Shown here: one piece after another, positions 37,595 to 47,055 of the stretch | Layout: every line of letters starts with the position of its first letter | Position numbering within the stretch: position 1 is the first letter of the stretch | NCBI RefSeq assembly: GCF_021272185.1 | Contig: NZ_JAJSEC010000003.1 | Coordinates: 62,001-126,000 of the forward strand | DNA: 64,000 bases | Source of the DNA: Roseivivax sp. GX 12232 | GTDB lineage: Bacteria; Pseudomonadota; Alphaproteobacteria; Rhodobacterales; Rhodobacteraceae | Direction of reading: 5' to 3' | Position numbers and translations under genes: made by a program | Notes under the pieces: model-generated | Told to the model about the DNA's origin: nothing | The model's database searches: none | Seen by the model: the letters and a program-made list of their open reading frames with translations, nothing else

Positions 37595-38593
37595 TCAGCC
37601 CAGAACGAAGATCGCGCCAAGCGCCACGAAGCCCGCGAGGAAGACCGTCTCGAGGCAGAGCATCAGCATCGCGGCGCGGCCCACCTGCATGAGTTTCGGC
37701 AGCGAGGTCTTCATGCCCACCGCCGCGATGGCGGTCAGCAGGGCCCAGCGCGACAGGTCCGAGGCCAGAGCATTGACCGTGTCGGGCACCACGCCGGTCG
37801 AATTCACCCCGGCCAGCACCAGGAAGGCCAGGACGAAGCCCGGCAGGAGCGGCGGGCGGCTGCCGGTCTCGGCGCTGCGGCGGAAGGCCAGCGCGGCCAG
37901 AAGCACCACGGGCGCCAGGAGGCTGACGCGGATCAGCTTGACCAGCGTGGCCACGTCGCCGACCTCGTCGCTGACCGAATAGCCCGCGCCGACGACCTGG
38001 GCGACGTCGTGGATCGTGCCGCCCAGGAAGACCCCGGTCACGGTGGCGTCGAAGCCCAGCCAGGCGGCCAGCATCGGGTAGAGAATCATCGCGAAGGTCG
38101 ACAGGACGGTGACGCCCACGACGGTGAAGACGATGTCCTGTTCGGAGCGTTCGTCGCGCGGCAGCACCGCGGCGATGGCCATGGCCGCCGAGGCGCCGCA
38201 GATCGCCACCGAGCCGCCGGTCAGCAGCGCGAAACGCTGGCGCCGCCCGAAGAGCGGCGCGGCCAGGAGTGCCACGCCGATGGTCGCCGCGGTGGCCAGC
38301 ACGATCAGCCCGACGAAGCCGAAGCCCAGGTCGGCCACCAGCCCCGCCGAGATCCGCAGCCCCAGAAGCGCCACCCCGAAGCGCAGCACCACCTTGGCGG
38401 CGAAATCGACACCCGGCGCGGTGCGCCCCTCCTCGGAGAGGAAATGCAGCGCGATGCCCAGGAGGATCGCCATCAGCATGGCCGGCGCGCCGTAATGTTC
38501 CGACAGGAAGGCCGCCGTCACCGCGACCAGCGCGGTCACCGCGAGGCCGGGGAAGATCGTCTGGAAGCGGTCGCGCAGCGTCTGGGTCGTCAT
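37595..38593 (-). CDS. YeiH-type putative sulfate/sulfite exporter
   Basis: A 332-residue membrane protein with about ten hydrophobic segments, belonging to the conserved YeiH family (PF03601) annotated as putative sulfate exporters. Recognisable pieces are GVALLGLRIS, TGGSVAICGASAAMAIAAV, FLGGTIHDVAQVVGAGYS and VGMKTSLPKLM. The ATG has GGAG seven bases upstream. It is the last gene after the TRAP genes, separated from dctP by a GC-rich hairpin. If the upstream flavin monooxygenase releases sulfite from a sulfonate, removal of sulfite is the obvious role of this exporter. Confidence 0.85.
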   Translation of the reverse strand: MTTQTLRDRFQTIFPGLAVTALVAVTAAFLSEHYGAPAMLMAILLGIALHFLSEEGRTAPGVDFAAKVVLRFGVALLGLRISAGLVADLGFGFVGLIVLATAATIGVALLAAPLFGRRQRFALLTGGSVAICGASAAMAIAAVLPRDERSEQDIVFTVVGVTVLSTFAMILYPMLAAWLGFDATVTGVFLGGTIHDVAQVVGAGYSVSDEVGDVATLVKLIRVSLLAPVVLLAALAFRRSAETGSRPPLLPGFVLAFLVLAGVNSTGVVPDTVNALASDLSRWALLTAIAAVGMKTSLPKLMQVGRAAMLMLCLETVFLAGFVALGAIFVLG

Positions 38594-38681
38594 CTCGGCT
38601 CCGGGTCTGGGCAATAGCTCGGGTGCGGCCGGGGGCCGGCGCGGCTGCCGTTTACGCATGTGGGAAAGCGGAGAAATGGGT

Positions 38682-38708
38682 GGCCCCGCGCGTCCATGGC
38701 GCGGGGCC
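38682..38708 (-). terminator. Hairpin between dctP-like and exporter genes
   Basis: A 10-bp perfect stem (GGCCCCGCGC with GCGCGGGGCC) and 7-nt loop, just after the dctP-like stop. It has no strong T-run, so it may attenuate rather than end transcription, or stabilise the upstream mRNA segment and so raise expression of the binding protein. Confidence 0.55.
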
Positions 38709-38716
38709 CGCGGACC

Positions 38717-39778
38717 TTACTGGATATCGGCCGCGATTTCGGCGTCGATGCGCTCTTCGGCCTCGGCGACGCTGTCGCGCAGCGCCTGGAGCACCTCTTC
38801 ACCGCCGTCGACGTTCTGCGCGAACCAGTCGTAGACCGGGGTCACGGCCTCGGAGAAGGCGTCCATCTCCTCGGCGGTGGGCACGTAGATCTCGCCGCCG
38901 GCCTCGGTGAAGGCCTGGTAGGCCGAGATCTGCTTGCGCTTGGGGCTGGCAAAGGTCGCCTGCTGCAGCTCCTTGAAGCCGTTGACGACCACCGTGCGCA
39001 GCTCTTCCGGCATGGAGGAGAAGCGCTCGTTGTTCATCACCCAGATGGCGGCCATATAGGCGTGCCCGTCAAGCGTGAGATGCTTCAGCCCGGCATCGGT
39101 GAACTTCATGTTCATGATGTCGGTCACGCCGTTCTTGGTGCCTTCCACCACGCCGGTCTGCAGCGAGGTGAAGAGTTCCGGCCACGGGATCGGCGTCGGC
39201 GAGGCGCCGAGCGTCTTGACCAGCTCCTGCGGCAGGTCGGCGACCACGGTGCGCATCTTCATGCCTTCGAGGTCCGAGGGCGAGGCGATGCGCTTCTGGG
39301 TGTTCGCGAAGTTCCGCCAGCCGCCGGTGTTGCCGATGGTCATGATGCGGATCGCGTCGCCGGAATCCTCGAGCCCCATCTCGCGCAGGGTGCGGGTGAA
39401 GGTGCCGTTGGTCAGGACCGCCTCGGCGATGCGGTCGTCGCGCATCAGGTAGGGCAGGTCGAAGACCTGGACGTAGGGGAAGATCCCCGCGGCGCCGCCC
39501 GAGGTGGTCACGAAGATGTCGATCGAGCCGTCGGCCACGCCCTGCAGGCACTCGGTGCCGTTGCCGCAAAGCTGGGTGCCGATGAAGAGCTCGACCTCGA
39601 TCGCGCCGTTCGAAGCCTTCTCGACGTAGTCCTTGAAGACCACGAGGCCGTCGTAGTCCTCGTCCTGGTCGTTGGAGTTGGCGGTGGCGCGCAGGGTGTA
39701 TTCCTGCGCCTGGGCCACACCCGCGGAGAGGCTGAGCGCCGCCGCGAGGCCGAGGCCGGTGAGGGTCTGTTTCAGCAT
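38717..39778 (-). CDS. TRAP transporter solute-binding protein (DctP family)
   Basis: A 353-residue periplasmic binding protein with signal peptide (LGLAAALSLSAGVAQAQ). The DctP fold is shown by GTQLCGNGTECLQGVADGSI (with two cysteines), GGWRNFANTQKRIASPSDLEG and MKMRTV, PELFTSLQTGVVEGTKNGV and HLTLDGHAYMA. GGAGGA precedes the ATG. It captures an organic acid-like ligand for the DctQM permease encoded upstream. The Arg in the SDLEGMKMRTV segment usually binds a carboxylate, or here possibly a sulfonate. Confidence 0.92.
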   Translation of the reverse strand: MLKQTLTGLGLAAALSLSAGVAQAQEYTLRATANSNDQDEDYDGLVVFKDYVEKASNGAIEVELFIGTQLCGNGTECLQGVADGSIDIFVTTSGGAAGIFPYVQVFDLPYLMRDDRIAEAVLTNGTFTRTLREMGLEDSGDAIRIMTIGNTGGWRNFANTQKRIASPSDLEGMKMRTVVADLPQELVKTLGASPTPIPWPELFTSLQTGVVEGTKNGVTDIMNMKFTDAGLKHLTLDGHAYMAAIWVMNNERFSSMPEELRTVVVNGFKELQQATFASPKRKQISAYQAFTEAGGEIYVPTAEEMDAFSEAVTPVYDWFAQNVDGGEEVLQALRDSVAEAEERIDAEIAADIQ

Positions 39779-39807
39779 GGTAGTCCTCCCTGTTTTTTGG
39801 ATGCTGA

Positions 39808-41283
39808 TCAGTTCACGAATCCCGCAAGTCGCGGAATGGTGAGGGAAATCGCGGGGACATAGGTGATCAAGAGGATCACCAGCACCTCCACCGCGAGGAA
39901 GGGCAGGATCGCCCGCGAGATGGATTCCACCTTCTCGCCTGACACCGATGAGGCGACGAAAAGCACCAGCCCCATGGGTGGCGTTGCCAGCCCCACGGTC
40001 AGGTTCACCGACATGATGATGGCGAAATGCACCGGGTCGACGCCGAGCGAGGTGAAGACCGGCCCGAGGATCGGCCCGAGGATGATGATCGCGGGCCCTG
40101 CGTCGAGGAACATGCCCACGATGAACAGCAGGATGTTGATCAGGAACAGCAGGGTCAGCGGGTTCTCGGAGAGCGCCAGGATGAACTCGGCCATGATCTC
40201 GGGCGCATGGCTGAGGCTGACGACGGTCTTGAAGCTGACCGCCGCGCCCACCAGCAGCAGCACCGTGGCCGAGGCGATGGCCGAGCGGCGCAGCACGTCG
40301 GCCAGATCGGCCAGCGTCATGGCCCCCAGCACCCCGTAGGAGATGATCAGCGCGTAGAGGACCGCGATGGCCGCCGCCTCGGTGGGCGTGAAGACGCCCA
40401 GGAGGATGCCGCCGAGGATGATGATCGGGGTCTGCAGCGGCGCCACGGCCTTCTTGCAGACGATGCGGAAATCCGCGTCCACGCGCTTGCGGTAGAAGAC
40501 CAGCAGGAAATGCGCGGGGATCAGGAGGCCGATGTAGACGGCGATGCCGCCCACCGCCATGCCCTCGGGCAGGAGGCCCGCGAGCAGGTAGAAGATGCCC
40601 GCGAGGTTCAGCCGCAGGAGCGCGAAGCTCACCCAGCTTTCGACCCGGCCGATCTTGGCGCCGCGGGCGACGATGCGCTCGGCCTTGGGCAGATCGAAGC
40701 GGTCGGCGAGGATGCGCACCATGACCATGAGCCCGAGGCCCACCAGGATGCCCGGCACGATGCCCGCGAGGAAGAGCGCCGCGACCGACTGGCCCATGAC
40801 ATAGGCGTAGATGATCATGATGCCCGAAGGCGGGATGATCGGCCCGATCACCGAGGAGGCCGCGGTGATCGCCGCGGCGAAGCGGCGCGAATAGCCCTGC
40901 CGCTCCATCGCGGGAATGAGCGTCGAGCCCAGCGCCGAGGTATCGGCCACCGCCGAGCCCGAGAGCCCCGCGAAGAGGATCGAGGACAGGATGTTCACAT
41001 GCGCGAGCCCGCCCCGCAGGTGACCCATGAAGGCCTGGGAGAACAGCACCAGCCGCTCGGTGATGCCGCCGCGGTTCATGATCTCGCCCGCGAGCAGGAA
41101 GAAGGGCAGGGCCATCAGCGGGAAGCTGTCCATGCCGTTGTAGAGATTGCGGTAGAGAAGCGCGAGGTCCCGCTCCTGGCCGTTCAGCCAGAGAAGCGCC
41201 CCGGGCGCGAAGAGCAGCGCGAAGAAGACCGGCAGGCCGATCATCAGGAGCAGCAGGAACAGCGGCAGGAACCAGACAAGCAT
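39808..41283 (-). CDS. TRAP transporter large permease (DctM family)
   Basis: A 491-residue polytopic membrane protein with the DctM signature (LSGSAVADTSALGSTLIPAM, PPSGIMIIYAYVMG, GVFTPTEAAAIAVLYAL). It is the ion-coupled translocation subunit. The ATG overlaps the dctQ-like TGA (TGATG); the GTG one codon earlier is an alternative start. It belongs to the monooxygenase operon. Confidence 0.93.
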   Translation of the reverse strand: MLVWFLPLFLLLLMIGLPVFFALLFAPGALLWLNGQERDLALLYRNLYNGMDSFPLMALPFFLLAGEIMNRGGITERLVLFSQAFMGHLRGGLAHVNILSSILFAGLSGSAVADTSALGSTLIPAMERQGYSRRFAAAITAASSVIGPIIPPSGIMIIYAYVMGQSVAALFLAGIVPGILVGLGLMVMVRILADRFDLPKAERIVARGAKIGRVESWVSFALLRLNLAGIFYLLAGLLPEGMAVGGIAVYIGLLIPAHFLLVFYRKRVDADFRIVCKKAVAPLQTPIIILGGILLGVFTPTEAAAIAVLYALIISYGVLGAMTLADLADVLRRSAIASATVLLLVGAAVSFKTVVSLSHAPEIMAEFILALSENPLTLLFLINILLFIVGMFLDAGPAIIILGPILGPVFTSLGVDPVHFAIIMSVNLTVGLATPPMGLVLFVASSVSGEKVESISRAILPFLAVEVLVILLITYVPAISLTIPRLAGFVN

Positions 41284-41870
41284 CACTCGGCCTCCGGCAG
41301 GTCGGCGGGGACCAGCGGCGACAGCTCGTCACCGCGCCCGGCCAGGATCAGGATGCGGCGCAGGATCAGCTCGATGTTGACCAGCGCGAGCAGGATCATC
41401 CCCAGGAAAACGGACATATACATCCAGGCGAGTTTGACCTTCACGACCTCGCCGCCGATCAGGTCGAGCGGCACCCGCAGCGAAGACGAGGCGAAGAGCC
41501 AGCCGGAATTCACATGCGTGTGGCCGAGCTGGACGCCCATGGCCAGGACGCTCATCGACATGAACAGCAGGACCAGGATCACCGTGTCGGCGAGCTTGCG
41601 GGGCAGGGCCTCGGTGATCATGTCGATCGCCACGAAGCCGCCCCGGCGCAGCCCCGAGGGTGCGGCCAGGCCGGTCATCCAGAGCATCAGGAAGCGCGCG
41701 GCCTCGTCGGGCCAGGGCAGGGCGTTGTTCAGCACGTAGCGGAACCAGACCTGCGCGAGGATCACCACCACCATGATGCCCAGCGCCAGGAGCGCCAGCC
41801 AGCGCCCGAGCGCCAGCGCCCAGGTGTTGAACAGCTCGAGCGGGACGAGCAAAGCCCGGATCAGCCCCAT
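41283..41870 (-). CDS. TRAP transporter small permease (DctQ family)
   Basis: A 195-residue protein with four membrane segments (WLALLALGIMVVVILAQVWF near residue 24, and three more) and the DctQ hallmarks RYVLNNALPWPDEAARFLML and GGFVAIDM. It pairs with the large permease. GAGGAG lies just before the ATG. It starts 82 bp after the flavin reductase gene, so readthrough from the enzymatic genes is likely. Confidence 0.9.
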   Translation of the reverse strand: MGLIRALLVPLELFNTWALALGRWLALLALGIMVVVILAQVWFRYVLNNALPWPDEAARFLMLWMTGLAAPSGLRRGGFVAIDMITEALPRKLADTVILVLLFMSMSVLAMGVQLGHTHVNSGWLFASSSLRVPLDLIGGEVVKVKLAWMYMSVFLGMILLALVNIELILRRILILAGRGDELSPLVPADLPEAE

Positions 41871-41952
41871 CTGTCTCCTCCCCTGCCTGCGCGCAGCGGG
41901 GCGCGCGCCGGTCCAAGTCTCCCGCGCCCCGTCCCGGGGCGCCGGGCCGGTG

Positions 41953-42471
41953 TCAGTCGAACGCCTGGAAGGCGCCGTAGCGGCCCTGCAGGAACAGCAG
42001 CGGTTCTCCCTCCCGCATGCGGACCCGCTGGACCCGGCCGACCACGATGACGTGGTCGCCGCCGTCGTGCACCGCCTCGCGGGCGCATTCGAAATGCGCC
42101 AGCGCCGATTCGATCAGCGGCACGCCGTTCTCGTTCTCGGTCAGGTCGCCGGGGCGGAAGCGCCGCGCGTCCTTGGCCACCTCGCCGCAAAGCGCGGCCT
42201 GGTCGGTGGCGATGACATGGATCGCGAAGTGCTGCGCCTCGGCAAAGGGCTTGAAGCGGCTCGAGGCCTTGGCCGGCGACCAGAGCACCAGCGGCGGATC
42301 GAGCGACAGCGAGGCAAAGCTGTTCGCGGTGATCGCGATCGGCCCGTCCTCGGTCTGGGTGGTCACGATGGTGACCCCGGTCGCGAAACGGCCCAACGCG
42401 TCGCGGAAGTCGCGCTCGCGGCCCGGTCCGGGCTCGAAGATCTCGTCCATCGTGCTCATGCCACCATCCAT
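41953..42471 (-). CDS. Flavin reductase family protein (candidate SmoA function)
   Basis: A 172-residue flavin reductase-like protein (FMN-binding split barrel): RDALGRFATGVTIVTT, AITANSFASLSLDPPLVLW and HFECAREAVHDGGDHVIVVG are all typical. It would supply FMNH2 to the LLM monooxygenase of the same operon, as SsuE- or SmoA-type reductases do. The ATG one base after the aldo/keto reductase TGA, with GAGG upstream, suggests translational coupling; internal Mets at residues 5 and 8 are alternatives. Confidence 0.88.
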   Translation of the reverse strand: MDGGMSTMDEIFEPGPGRERDFRDALGRFATGVTIVTTQTEDGPIAITANSFASLSLDPPLVLWSPAKASSRFKPFAEAQHFAIHVIATDQAALCGEVAKDARRFRPGDLTENENGVPLIESALAHFECAREAVHDGGDHVIVVGRVQRVRMREGEPLLFLQGRYGAFQAFD

Positions 42472-42472
42472 G

Positions 42473-43369
42473 TCAGGGCACCTCGTGGCCCAGCGCAAGG
42501 GTATAAAGCTCGAACCACGTCTCGCGGTCGATCTCAACCTTTTCGGCGGCCCCGAGGCCCTTGATCCGCTCGAGGTTGTTGGTGCCCATCACCGGCAGGA
42601 TCCGCGCGGGATGGCGCAGGAGCCAGGCCACCGCCACCGCCGCCGCGTCGACGCCCTGCGCGGTCGCGATCTCGTCGAGCTTGGCGCGCAGCCGCGCCGA
42701 GCTTTCGGCAAAAAGCGAGCCGCCGCCCAGCGGCGACCAGGCCATGGGCGCGATGCCGCGTTCCTGCAGGAAGGCCACGTCGCCGTTGGTGAAGCCCTCA
42801 TGCGCCAGCAGCGACAGCTCGATCTGGTTGGTCACCAGCGGCGTCTTCATCGCCGATTGCAGCAGCGTCCAGTCGTAGGGGCGGAAGTTCGACACGCCGA
42901 CCTGGCCGACCTTGCCCGAGGCCACCGCCTTGTCGAGCGCCGCGCCGGTCTCCTGGTGGTCCATCAGCGGGTCGGGGCGGTGGATCAAGAGAAGGTCGAT
43001 ATGCTCGATCCCCATCAGCCGCAGCGAATGGTCGACCGAGGCCTCGATATGCGCCGCGGAGGTGTCGTAATATTTCACCCGACGGTCGGCGTAGCGCCCC
43101 GCCGGCGCGACGATGTCGCACTTGGTGACGATTTCGATCTTGTCGCGCAGGTCCGAGCCCTTGAGCGCCTGGCCCAGCACCTCCTCGGCCTCGTAGCCGC
43201 CGTAGATGTCGGCCTGGTCCATGGTGGTGATGCCCTGCTCGAGGCAGGCTTCGATCTTGGCCTGCACATGGACCGGCGAGGTGTCGCTGTCGTCCGACAG
43301 CCGCCACATGCCGTAGACGATGCGGCTGAGGCTAAGATCCTGGGCGAGTTGGACGCGGGACACGGTCAC
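42473..43369 (-). CDS. Aldo/keto reductase, AKR11-like (candidate SmoB function)
   Basis: A 298-residue (alpha/beta)8 aldo/keto reductase. The catalytic tetrad is visible as Asp51 and Tyr56 (MDQADIYGGY), Lys83 (VTKCD) and His130 (LLLIHRPD). VGVSNFRPYDW and ELSLLAHEGF are close to the YdhF/AKR11 group. The GTG start overlaps the monooxygenase TGA by 4 bp (GTGA) and follows GGAGAG. In the sulfoquinovose monooxygenase pathway, an NADPH aldo/keto reductase turns 6-dehydroglucose into glucose; gene order suits that job, though other aldehydes are possible. Confidence 0.9.
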   Translation of the reverse strand: MTVSRVQLAQDLSLSRIVYGMWRLSDDSDTSPVHVQAKIEACLEQGITTMDQADIYGGYEAEEVLGQALKGSDLRDKIEIVTKCDIVAPAGRYADRRVKYYDTSAAHIEASVDHSLRLMGIEHIDLLLIHRPDPLMDHQETGAALDKAVASGKVGQVGVSNFRPYDWTLLQSAMKTPLVTNQIELSLLAHEGFTNGDVAFLQERGIAPMAWSPLGGGSLFAESSARLRAKLDEIATAQGVDAAAVAVAWLLRHPARILPVMGTNNLERIKGLGAAEKVEIDRETWFELYTLALGHEVP

Positions 43370-44523
43370 TTGCGCTCTCCTTCTGCGAGGGGGGTCGCGG
43401 GGGTCTCGCTCGGCACCCGGCCATAGACATGGGGCAGCGAGCAGGTTTCGAGGTTCGGGAGCACCTTCTCGCCGAAGTGGCGGCATTCGTCGAGATGCGG
43501 ATATCCCGAGAAGATGAAGGCGCGGATGCCCATCTTCTTGTAGCGTTCGATCTTGGACATGACCTGGTCGACCGAGCCGACAAGGGCCGCGCCGCAGCCC
43601 GAGCGCGCCCGCCCGATGCCGGTCCAGAGGCCGGGCTCCACGTAGCCGAACTGGTCGGCCAGCTCGCGCGCCCGCGCCTGGTGGCTGACCCCGAGCGATG
43701 TGGCGTCATGCGAGCGTTCGCGGATCAGCCGGCCGTATTCGTCGTCGAGCTTGGAGACGATGTAATCGGCGTATTCCCGCGCCTCCTGTTCGGTGTCGCG
43801 CACGATCATGTGCACCCGCAGCCCGTAGTCGAGCGTCCGTCCGTAGCGTTCGGCCACCGCGTTCACGTCGCGCATGCGCTGGGCGAGCTGCTCCTCGGGC
43901 TCGGGCCACATCAAGTAGACGTCGCAGTGCTGGCCGCAGAGCTCGAGCGCGTGGGGCGAGTAGCCGCCGAAGTAGAGGAGCGGCCCGCCGTTCTGCTGGT
44001 AGGGCTTGGCGGGGTCGGTCCAGAGGTTCTTGAAGTTGTAGACCTCGCCCTCGTAGTTGATCTCGTCGCGGGTCCAGGCCTGCTTGAGGATCTCCACCAC
44101 CTCGCGCGAGCGCTGGTAGCGGAAGGCGCTGTCGGCCTTCTCGCCGGGGAAGTCCGAGGAGATGACGTTCAGCGTCAGCCGGCCCTTCATCATGTGGTCG
44201 ATGGTCGCCACGGTGCGCGCCAGCATGATCGGCTGCATCTCGCCGCAGCGGATCGCGGCGAGCATGTTGATGTCCTTGGTCACCTGCGCGCCCGCGGCCA
44301 CGAAGGACAGCACGTCCTGGCCGACCTGGTAGGACGAGGGACACAGGATGTTGCGGAAGCCCTGGGCCTCGGCCTCCTTCAGGATTGAGGAGCAGTGGTC
44401 CCAGCTCGAACGCAGCCGCCCTTCGGGCACGCCGAGGAACTGGTAGTCGTCCGAGCAGAGCGCGGCGAACCAGGACACCTCGGCGGCGTCGAGATCGGCG
44501 GAGGTGACGGGCACTACGGTCAT
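43366..44523 (-). CDS. LLM-class FMNH2-dependent monooxygenase (candidate sulfoquinovose monooxygenase)
   Basis: A 385-residue bacterial-luciferase-like monooxygenase of the SsuD group. Family features include DYQFLGVPEGRLRSSWDHC, SFVAAGAQVTKDINMLAAIR, GRLTLNVISSDFPGEKADSA and the C-terminal MGIRAFIFSGYPHLDE region. SsuD-type enzymes cleave C-S bonds of sulfonates with O2 and FMNH2, giving an aldehyde and sulfite. The operon supplies a flavin reductase, an aldehyde-reducing AKR, a TRAP importer and a sulfite exporter, which together match the SmoC role. The ATG follows GAGGAA by five bases. Substrate identity is inferred, not shown. Confidence 0.85.
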   Translation of the reverse strand: MTVVPVTSADLDAAEVSWFAALCSDDYQFLGVPEGRLRSSWDHCSSILKEAEAQGFRNILCPSSYQVGQDVLSFVAAGAQVTKDINMLAAIRCGEMQPIMLARTVATIDHMMKGRLTLNVISSDFPGEKADSAFRYQRSREVVEILKQAWTRDEINYEGEVYNFKNLWTDPAKPYQQNGGPLLYFGGYSPHALELCGQHCDVYLMWPEPEEQLAQRMRDVNAVAERYGRTLDYGLRVHMIVRDTEQEAREYADYIVSKLDDEYGRLIRERSHDATSLGVSHQARARELADQFGYVEPGLWTGIGRARSGCGAALVGSVDQVMSKIERYKKMGIRAFIFSGYPHLDECRHFGEKVLPNLETCSLPHVYGRVPSETPATPLAEGERK

Positions 44524-44571
44524 GTGATTCCTCGGAAGCTCGGCGTGAATTGGCCCTTGCGTAGCATCGTC

Positions 44572-44598
44572 ATTGATGTGCATCAATAGTGTATCAAT
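44572..44598. promoter_or_regulatory. Probable GntR operator between divergent operons
   Basis: The palindrome ATTGATGTGCATCAAT (44572-44587; 7-bp half-sites around TG) is followed by a third half, GTATCAAT (44591-44598). It sits in the 92-bp gap between the monooxygenase and gntR genes and would overlap promoters of both directions. It is a natural target for the adjacent GntR protein. Confidence 0.6.
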
Positions 44599-44615
44599 TT
44601 TTCGCCGCAGAATCG

Positions 44616-45317
44616 ATGCCCGACGAAACAGCCCTTCCCCGCTACCTCCAGGTGGCCGAAACCCTGATCCGCGAGATCGCGGCGGGGCGGCTGGCCGATG
44701 GTGCGCGGCTGCCGCCCGAACGCGAGATGGCCGCCGAGCGCGAGGTCTCGGTCGGCACCCTGCGCAAGGCGCTGGCGCGGCTCGAGGAGGCGGGGCTTCT
44801 GGAGCGCATCCAGGGCTCGGGCAACTACGTGCGCCACGCCCCGCAGGAGCTGGGCCTCTACGCCTTCTTCCGGCTCGAACTGGTGGAGGGCGGCGGCTTG
44901 CCCACTGCCGAGCTGATCACCGTGGAGCGCCGCGGCAAGGAGCCGGCGATGCCGGACTTCGGCCCGGCCCCCGAGGGCCACCGCATCCGCCGCCTGCGCC
45001 GCATCGGCGGCATTCCCGCGGTGCTCGAGGAGATCTGGCTCGACGGCGCGGCGGTCGCCGAGATCGACCGTTCGGACCTCTCCGAGAGCCTCTATCTTTA
45101 CTACCGCGAGCGGCTGGGCCTGGTGATCACCCGGGCCGAGGACCGGCTCGGCGTGGCGCCGGTGCCCGATTGGGTGCCCGGCGCCGCCACGCTGACGTCG
45201 GGCGAGACCGCCGGTTTCATCGAACGCGTGAGCCAGGCCGCCGACGGCGCCCGGGTGGAATATTCCCGCACCTGGTTCGACAGCCGCCACGTCCGCTACG
45301 TGGCACGCCTCAGATAA
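44616..45317 (+). CDS. GntR family regulator (HutC/UTRA type)
   Basis: A 233-residue regulator: winged-helix N-terminus (GARLPPEREMAAEREVSVGT, LARLEEAGLLERIQGSGNYV) and a UTRA ligand-sensing domain (HRIRRLRRIGGIPAVLEEIW, YYRERLGLVITRAEDRL). HutC-type members usually sense sugars or carboxylates. The ATG gives MPDETALPRYLQV; a GTG 27 bases upstream lies inside the operator, so is unlikely. It is divergent from the monooxygenase operon and precedes a Gfo/Idh/MocA gene, so it probably controls both. Confidence 0.9.
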   Translation: MPDETALPRYLQVAETLIREIAAGRLADGARLPPEREMAAEREVSVGTLRKALARLEEAGLLERIQGSGNYVRHAPQELGLYAFFRLELVEGGGLPTAELITVERRGKEPAMPDFGPAPEGHRIRRLRRIGGIPAVLEEIWLDGAAVAEIDRSDLSESLYLYYRERLGLVITRAEDRLGVAPVPDWVPGAATLTSGETAGFIERVSQAADGARVEYSRTWFDSRHVRYVARLR

Positions 45318-45335
45318 CGAAGGGACGACTTGAGC

Positions 45336-46418
45336 ATGGTTAACTACGGCATCATCGGCGCCGGCATGATGGGGCAGGAGCACATCCGCAACATCCAGCT
45401 TCTGGGCGGGGCGCGGGTCGACGCGATCTTCGAGCCGGACGCCGAGATGCGCGGCCGGGCCGGGGCGCTGGCGCCCGATGCGGCGCTCGTCGGCAGCATC
45501 CCCGAGATGCTGCGCCGGAACACGCTCGACTGCCTGCTGATCGCCTCGCCGAACAACCTGCATGTGTCGCAGATGGAGGAGGTCGCCGCGATCCGCCCGC
45601 TGCCGATGATCGTGGAGAAGCCGCTTTACACCAGCGAGGCCGAGGCCGCCCGCGTCGAGGTGCTGGCCCGCGACTATCCCGCGCCGATCTGGGTGGCGAT
45701 GGAATACCGTTACATGCCGCCCATCGCGATGATGCTCGAGCGCGCCGAGGCCGAGACCGGCGGGCTGAAGATGCTGACCATCCGCGAGCACCGTTTTCCC
45801 TTCCTCGACAAGGTGCAGGCCTGGAACCGCTTCAACGCCACCTCGGGCGGCACGTTGGTCGAGAAATGCTGCCATTTCTTCGATCTCATGCGGCTGGCGA
45901 CCGGGGCCGAGCCGGTGCGGGTCATGGCCTCGGGTGGCCAGTCGGTGAACCACCGCGAGGAAAGCTACGACGGCCGCGCCCCCGACATCTGGGACAACGC
46001 CTATACGATCGTGGATTTCGACAACGGCGCGCGGGCGATGCTCGAGCTTTGCATGTTCGCCGAGGGCTCGAAGTATCAGGAGCACCTGAGCGCCGTCGGC
46101 CCGCGCGGCAAGATCGAGGCGCTGGTGCCGGGACCGACGCGTTTCTGGCCCGAGCATCTGGGCCCCGCGCCGGTGCCGCAGGTGGTGCTGAGCCCGCGCA
46201 ACCCCTCGGGCGAGCAGGTGCTCGACGTGCCGGTGGACCCGGCGCTGCTGGATGCCGGGGATCACAACGGCTCGACCTTCTACCAGCACCGCCGCTTCCT
46301 CGAGGTGATCCGCTCGGGCGGGCCGGTCGAGGTCTCGCTGAGCGACGGCGCCAAGGCGGTGCGCATGGGGCTGGCCGCGCAGCGCTCGGCCGAGACCGGC
46401 GCGGCGGTCGCGCTTTAG
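45336..46418 (+). CDS. Gfo/Idh/MocA family NAD(P)-binding protein (candidate NAD-dependent sulfoquinovosidase)
   Basis: A 360-residue Gfo/Idh/MocA protein: dinucleotide motif GIIGAGMMGQEH at the N-terminus, IVEKPLYT (EKP motif), EYRYMPPIAMML and a C-terminal substrate domain (VEKCCHFFDLMRLATG, where the His of the CHFFD motif is catalytic in many relatives). Most members are sugar or inositol dehydrogenases. A related NAD-dependent glycosidase family (CAZy GH188, as I recall) cleaves sulfoquinovosides, and this operon lacks a GH31-type sulfoquinovosidase, so that role is worth testing. It is 18 bp after gntR. The TTG six bases upstream is an alternative start. Confidence 0.85.
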   Translation: MVNYGIIGAGMMGQEHIRNIQLLGGARVDAIFEPDAEMRGRAGALAPDAALVGSIPEMLRRNTLDCLLIASPNNLHVSQMEEVAAIRPLPMIVEKPLYTSEAEAARVEVLARDYPAPIWVAMEYRYMPPIAMMLERAEAETGGLKMLTIREHRFPFLDKVQAWNRFNATSGGTLVEKCCHFFDLMRLATGAEPVRVMASGGQSVNHREESYDGRAPDIWDNAYTIVDFDNGARAMLELCMFAEGSKYQEHLSAVGPRGKIEALVPGPTRFWPEHLGPAPVPQVVLSPRNPSGEQVLDVPVDPALLDAGDHNGSTFYQHRRFLEVIRSGGPVEVSLSDGAKAVRMGLAAQRSAETGAAVAL

Positions 46419-46620: not shown

Positions 46621-47055
46621 ATGTTCAACAAACTTCTCGCCGCGAGTGTCCTTGCCATGCTGCCCGCCGGGATGGCCTGGGCCGAAAGCCACGAATCCGG
46701 CGAAGGCATGGAGATCACCGGCGATCCCGAGGCCGGCGAGCGCGTCTACCGCAAGTGCATGGCCTGCCACATGGTGGGCGAGGACGCGCAGAACCGCGTC
46801 GGCCCGCAGCAGAACGGCGTGGTCGGCCGCGATGTCGCCGCGGTCGAGGGCTTCAACTACTCCGACGCGTTGATGGAGAAGGGCGAAGAGGGCGTGGTCT
46901 GGACCCCCGAGAACCTCGACGCCTTCCTCGAGAACCCGCGCGAATGGGCGCCGGGCACGAAGATGTCCTTCGCCGGTCTGCGCAAGGAGGAAGAGCGCGC
47001 GGATGTGATCGCCTACCTCGCGACGTATAACGCGGACGGCACCCGGGCGGAGTGA
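46621..47055 (+). CDS. Class I c-type cytochrome (cytochrome c2/c550-like)
   Basis: A 144-residue periplasmic monohaem cytochrome c with signal peptide (LLAASVLAMLPAGMAWA), haem site CMACH (Cys46, Cys49, His50) and axial Met115 in PGTKMSFAG. The GPQQNGVVGR and FLENPREWAPGTKM segments are those of cytochrome c2-like electron carriers. AGGAAAGAGAG precedes the ATG. It is monocistronic and ends with a strong terminator. It may carry electrons between the bc1 complex and oxidases or periplasmic dehydrogenases. Confidence 0.93.
   Translation: MFNKLLAASVLAMLPAGMAWAESHESGEGMEITGDPEAGERVYRKCMACHMVGEDAQNRVGPQQNGVVGRDVAAVEGFNYSDALMEKGEEGVVWTPENLDAFLENPREWAPGTKMSFAGLRKEEERADVIAYLATYNADGTRAE

Follow-up and report, generated by a model that had tools for sequence, protein, structure and literature searches.

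A predicted sulfo-SMO operon for sulfoquinovose with TRAP import and a GH188 sulfoquinovosidase in Roseivivax sp. GX 12232

We analysed a 64,000-nucleotide stretch of the genome of Roseivivax sp. GX 12232 (contig NZ_JAJSEC010000003.1, positions 62,001 to 126,000; hereafter the window), in which nine genes at window positions 37595-46418 very probably constitute a sulfo-SMO (sulfoquinovose monooxygenase) operon for the use of sulfoquinovose (SQ) and its glycosides, with import by a tripartite ATP-independent periplasmic (TRAP) transporter, a sulfoquinovosidase of glycoside hydrolase family 188 (GH188), and control by a GntR regulator. In the proposed scheme, the TRAP transporter DctPQM would import SQ-glycerol and/or SQ, and a cytoplasmic GH188 enzyme would free SQ from its glycosides via a transient oxidation dependent on nicotinamide adenine dinucleotide (NAD+). 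The flavin reductase would then feed reduced flavin mononucleotide (FMNH2) to the SQ monooxygenase, which would cleave the C-S bond to yield sulfite and 6-dehydroglucose, the latter being converted to glucose by a SmoB-type reductase. Sulfite would be removed by YeiH or by another route, and GntR, acting at a palindrome at 44573-44586, would govern both divergent units. The sulfosugar SQ is abundant in plants and algae and is used by marine Roseobacters; TRAP transport is sodium-driven. Uptake appears to be the least documented step in Roseobacter SQ use, and a sodium-driven TRAP route, if true, would change the expected import cost and the marker genes for SQ users. Some 10 billion tons of SQ are produced annually (PMC10755693).

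Gene calls were based on open reading frames and on Pfam matches over the gathering score for all nine genes, which bore out the gene set, order, strands and divergence described in an earlier note on this DNA. On the minus strand, transcription runs from the luciferase-like monooxygenase (LLM) gene through the genes for the aldo/keto reductase, the flavin reductase, DctQ, DctM and DctP to yeiH, while GntR and a Gfo/Idh/MocA protein are encoded in this order on the plus strand, divergent from the monooxygenase. The features are as follows.

37595..38593, minus strand: YeiH-like putative sulfate/sulfite exporter (PF03601 over the gathering score)
38717..39778, minus strand: DctP, TRAP solute-binding protein, predicted SQ/SQ-glycerol binder (PF03480)
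39808..41283, minus strand: DctM, TRAP large permease (PF06808; TIGR00786 over the cut-off)
41283..41870, minus strand: DctQ, TRAP small permease (PF04290)
41953..42471, minus strand: flavin reductase in the SmoA position (PF01613)
42473..43369, minus strand: aldo/keto reductase of SmoB type, predicted to convert 6-dehydroglucose to glucose, GTG start (PF00248)
43366..44523, minus strand: predicted SQ monooxygenase (SmoC/SquD type, FMNH2-dependent LLM), 385 amino acids (PF00296)
44573..44586, between the divergent genes: predicted GntR operator TTGATGTGCATCAA
44616..45317, plus strand: GntR/UTRA regulator (PF00392, PF07702)
45336..46418, plus strand: predicted GH188 NAD+-dependent sulfoquinovosidase with a Gfo/Idh/MocA fold (GFO_IDH_MocA match), predicted cytoplasmic

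The genes of the enzymatic trio had been described as coupled by GTGA overlaps or near-overlaps. Such an overlap joins the monooxygenase stop to the GTG start of the aldo/keto reductase, whereas the latter gene and that of the flavin reductase do not overlap and lie one base apart (TGA-C-ATG); a further overlap, TGATG, links dctQ and dctM. The probable start codon of the monooxygenase is the ATG at 44523, which matches the start of Protein Data Bank (PDB) entry 7oh2 and the annotated start in a related locus (L117), so that the stretch from there up to 44586 is probably noncoding and holds the operator. For comparison, we used the best 80 of at least 566 candidate loci, picked by monooxygenase identity to the window, a choice that under-samples distant monooxygenases; these loci share ancestry, and their counts are therefore not independent. 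The reductase accompanied the monooxygenase in all 80 of them, and the flavin reductase and the TRAP transporter were also found in 49 (tblastn), a conserved co-occurrence which argues that the gene order is not due to chance. The closest listed contig match came from Roseivivax halotolerans, with a monooxygenase 91% identical to ours.

Desulfonation enzymes and sulfoquinovosidase

The monooxygenase shared 306 and 304 of 384 residues (79-80%) with PDB entries 7oh2 and 7olf, respectively, compared with 34-35% identity to three SsuD/MsuD sequences. We take 7oh2 and 7olf to be SQ monooxygenases of the sulfo-SMO pathway, a code search having turned up no confirming paper. The tree against SsuD that had been suggested for this enzyme (32 rows) placed it in a 16-row group together with 7oh2 and 7olf (support 90/94, just under the program's certainty mark, the program also flagging long branches that meet near a group of 50%-identity relatives), and the SsuD/MsuD sequences fell on a separate branch with support of 100/100. 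The aldo/keto reductase had its best PDB matches in 7bby and 7bbz (E about 3e-132), presumably SmoB, followed by 7twz (E 1.7e-65). Its gene adjoins and overlaps that of the monooxygenase, and co-location of a SmoB-type reductase with the monooxygenase is the criterion given for the sulfo-SMO pathway in PMC13372026. The flavin reductase, present in all 49 TRAP-type loci among the 80, was predicted from its PF01613 domain and its operon position; it scored 208.9 bits against the NCBIfam model FerA, below the cut-off of 260.

These data bear on a desulfonation of simple alkanesulfonates by SsuD/SsuE-like enzymes, with the TRAP transporter importing such sulfonates. The monooxygenase does belong to the SsuD superfamily, its best NCBIfam model is TIGR03565, and isethionate TRAP importers exist, one of which, IseP, is among the nearest folds to DctP. 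The TIGR03565 score of 241.5 bits, however, lies far under the cut-off of 518.2, identity and tree set the enzyme apart from SsuD/MsuD, and both the SmoB-type reductase and the GH188 sulfoquinovosidase would be left without a role. We rejected plain alkanesulfonate use on the score, the identity and the tree, and consider it extremely improbable. Sulfo-SMO-type SQ desulfonation, which the earlier note had preferred, is thus well supported by the sequence comparisons, the tree and the gene neighbourhood, the individual enzyme identities being predicted from homology and residue conservation.

The Gfo/Idh/MocA protein had its best PDB matches in 8zn9, 8qc3 and 8qc2, and 176 of 356 residues were identical to 8qc3. 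The 8QC codes correspond to structures of SqgA, founding members of GH188 (Kaur et al. 2023, PMC10755693). In the numbering of that paper, the SQ-contacting residues that could be placed were kept in all eight cases, comprising the sulfonate-binding Arg166, Leu170 and Lys172 and the active-site Lys107, Tyr136, Glu189, His193 and His321. The same eight residues were found in 76 of the 76 GH188 copies from the 80 loci, four loci being without a copy over 50% identity. Glu163 of the paper was unmatched at its stated number, where 8qc3 has Val and the window protein Arg, with a Glu one place later in both. In a survey of 101 genomes, our own of 4.12 Mb included, GH188 was present in 27 of the 28 genomes with the monooxygenase (exception G002), and PMC10755693 describes it as near-universal in Roseobacter sulfo-SMO clusters. 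Judged by its sequence, this neighbour is a GH188 sulfoquinovosidase and belongs to the system, and the locus illustrates how a Gfo/Idh/MocA annotation can mask a glycoside hydrolase.

With this enzyme, SQ glycosides should be within the reach of the cluster, as far as its gene content indicates, and the gap that the earlier note had left is filled. That note was right in that no GH31 gene lies within the cluster, but it overlooked the GH188 sulfoquinovosidase. The GH188 protein opens with a Rossmann fold and has no leader, and SQ glycosides would therefore need import. The single GH31 match in the genome sits on another contig (C36; L128, 4642-12804) and was rejected as the glycosidase of the system; its neighbours are genes for a glucuronate isomerase (UxaC), for a protein of the mannitol dehydrogenase family and for a separate, distant TRAP transporter, a set that is perhaps for glucuronides.

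The main substrate could also be another sulfosugar or an SQ relative, such as sulfofucose or a beta-linked SQ glycoside. One GH188 enzyme cleaved both alpha and beta SQ glycosides (PMC10755693), and a sulfofucose pathway is known in Paracoccus (PMC12421959). As described there, however, the latter pathway uses other enzymes and an ABC (ATP-binding cassette) importer, and the GH188 contacts to SQ are kept, so we regard this alternative as very unlikely.

Regulator, exporter and flanking gene

The palindrome at 44573-44586, between the divergent genes, is the genome's sole TTGATGNNCATCAA site (4.12 Mb). We searched 89 loci (the 80 contig loci and nine plasmid loci) for the relaxed form TTGATNNNNATCAA. 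Among the 82 loci with an adjacent GntR gene, 44 carried it with 0 mismatches and 52 with at most one, compared with 13 of 1640 regions shuffled in two-base blocks; shared ancestry limits the independence of these counts as well. In 45 of the 52, it preceded the monooxygenase match by some 60-69 bases. Of the seven loci without an adjacent GntR gene, one (L010) keeps the operator. GntR probably controls both divergent units from this palindrome, a prediction drawn from the site and its conservation. As a separate observation, three Roseivivax loci (L010, L011 and L013) have no GntR gene between the GH188 and monooxygenase genes; the operator is exact in L010 and has a broken form in L011.

The YeiH-like protein matched PF03601 well over the gathering score and reached 130.9 bits against TIGR00698, below the cut-off of 232.6. 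At 72-100% identity, its gene adjoins the operon in 6/9 genomes of the genus Roseivivax; the three remaining genomes have their best match elsewhere (36-58%). Of the 49 TRAP-type loci, only 3 had a YeiH relative nearby, and a gene annotated as a 'putative sulfate exporter' was in the stretch of 4/9 plasmid records. YeiH is a putative sulfite exit, plausible from the gene content, and its patchy occurrence across loci indicates that it would be optional. Regarding sulfite oxidation, a search of the genome that covered the families PF03404 and PF04976 gave no match to either.

Next to the operon, a plus-strand gene at window positions 46621-47055, 3' of the GH188 gene, encodes a Cyt550-like cytochrome of c type that scores under the cut-off of its family; a similar gene also adjoins GH188 in locus L009.

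The TRAP importer

The TRAP importer reported in the earlier note is in the operon, with DctP, DctQ and DctM encoded together and their Pfam matches over the cut-off. To class the importers beside the monooxygenase in the 80 loci, we ran tblastn with the window TRAP transporter and with ABC importers of two origins, one a Marinovum plasmid and the other a Rhizobiaceae locus. Within a 12 kb range, 49 loci had TRAP, 14 ABC, 17 neither and none both, while a 9 kb range gave 10 ABC and 21 neither. Only L027 and L029 of the 17 clearly end at a contig end, and L029 has the esterase that occurs in ABC-type loci; the true ABC share may therefore exceed 14/80. In the nine annotated plasmid records examined, out of 11 with an identity of at least 60%, eight had TRAP and one had ABC.

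Of the 101 genomes, 28 had the monooxygenase, 32 had GH188 and 24 encoded a DctP with 67-100% identity; after these, the best DctP dropped to 40%. In 18 of the 24, dctP was on the same contig as the monooxygenase gene and within about 6 kb of it. Three other genomes (G009, G015 and G023) have, in one set, a close TRAP transporter, a MauG-type protein, a PfkB kinase, a DeoC/LacD aldolase, a fucose-isomerase-domain protein and GH188, with identities of 72-74% for DctP and 48-54% for GH188, and the isomerase, kinase and aldolase genes replace the monooxygenase. These three families match the kinase and the aldolase of the sulfoglycolytic Embden-Meyerhof-Parnas (sulfo-EMP) pathway, and the isomerase SqvD (PMC9594981). 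The same TRAP transporter thus occurs with the same kind of glycosidase and a different downstream chemistry, a pattern that speaks for SQ or an SQ glycoside as its cargo. G048 (L132, 4223-10884) retains the TRAP transporter together with the flavin reductase, the reductase, GntR and GH188, and the monooxygenase was not found, an apparent loss or an unusual replacement.

The structural model of DctP (mean predicted local distance difference test score of 78) had its nearest Foldseek matches in SiaP, the isethionate binder IseP and the sugar-acid binder DctPAm, so that the model places DctP only broadly, among anion-binding TRAP proteins. As a further observation, an invariant Cys71...Cys77 pair (counted from the start Met), possibly a disulfide, was present in 64/64 rows of the SQ-type DctP, and a 39%-identical DctP from L137 is without it. 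A di-haem cytochrome c peroxidase/MauG-type protein (L129, 8046-9893) travels with the TRAP transporter in both SMO and sulfo-EMP-like clusters and is at most 9 kb from the monooxygenase in 28/49 TRAP-type loci; in the window, dctP is followed by yeiH instead.

Several findings weigh against the proposed reading of the operon or of its importer. The PDB titles of 7oh2 and 7olf are 'alkanesulfonate monooxygenase' and 'methanesulfonate sulfonatase', and so differ from the identity we assume; likewise, the PDB names of 7bby/7bbz are not SmoB, and no paper with these codes was found. Locus L124 has the monooxygenase and TRAP genes, and its stretch holds no gene for the reductase, the flavin reductase or GH188; 30/82 loci with GntR carry two or more operator mismatches. 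As for the importer, one of the 17 loci with neither type is a Roseivivax (L011). In G022, the close TRAP transporter is not near SQ genes and lies well inside a contig separate from the GH188/PfkB/isomerase set, and in G056 the TRAP genes (DctP about 80%) lie beside a flavin reductase gene with no match to the monooxygenase or GH188 in that genome. The TctA, TctB and TctC genes near the GH188/PfkB/fucose-isomerase-domain set of G022 (L134, 8856-17284) may represent a third importer type for SQ, and the flavin reductase and TRAP genes of G056 (L135, 6069-9778), beside AMP-ligase and cupin genes, may be a relic, or the TRAP transporter may serve another purpose there.

The importer findings would fit an operon in which the enzymes act on SQ, the TRAP transporter serves another anion, such as a sugar acid, and SQ enters by a different importer. 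This is in line with the loci that have neither importer nearby, with the sialic-acid and sugar-acid binders among the nearest DctP folds, and with the position of the TRAP genes away from the monooxygenase and GH188 in G022 and G056. It is countered by the TRAP genes in the same operon in 49/80 loci, by the lack of any locus with both importer types, and by the recurrence of TRAP beside GH188 in the three sulfo-EMP-like sets, and we consider it unlikely. We infer that the import substrate is SQ and/or SQ-glycerol. It appears reasonably probable that Roseobacteraceae and some Rhizobiaceae have a TRAP family dedicated to SQ or SQ-glycerol, which replaces ABC importers, occurs with GH188 in SMO and sulfo-EMP-like pathways, and in SMO clusters comes with GntR acting at TTGATNNNNATCAA.

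The importers of SQ or SQ-glycerol named in passages of PMC12421959 and PMC9594981 are of the ABC type, and passages of PMC12890257 name exporters only, YihP and SqwE. Among the papers listed, none linking TRAP to SQ uptake was found, in a search whose reach did not extend to Liu et al. 2023, a key Roseobacter paper; in Kaur et al. (PMC10755693), the words transporter, TRAP, uptake and permease do not occur in the main text, as distinct from the figures and supplement.

Comparison with known systems

The Agrobacterium sulfo-SMO system (sulfo-ASMO, SmoA-I), some details of which are presumed here, resembles the window in that the monooxygenase, the SmoB-type reductase and the flavin reductase are encoded together. 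In contrast to Agrobacterium, the window has GH188 instead of a GH31 sulfoquinovosidase, together with a YeiH-like exporter, and TRAP where Agrobacterium has an ABC SQ-glycerol importer (PMC9594981); the combination of an ABC importer and GH31 that marks the Agrobacterium-type cluster is thus absent from our locus. IseP (PDB 8t9t, 8te9) has the fold class of the window DctP and likewise belongs to a three-part importer, although identity in the structural match is 23-24% and both the operon and the predicted ligand differ. The sulfo-EMP-like sets of G009, G015 and G023 share with the window a close TRAP transporter and GH188 in one set. The closest likeness in enzyme set, sulfoquinovosidase and bacterial group is to the GH188-bearing sulfo-SMO clusters of Roseobacters (Kaur et al. 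2023, PMC10755693). The assignment of the locus to this published kind, a combination common in Roseobacteraceae, is well supported, and what may be unreported is TRAP as the SQ importer and its exchange with ABC.

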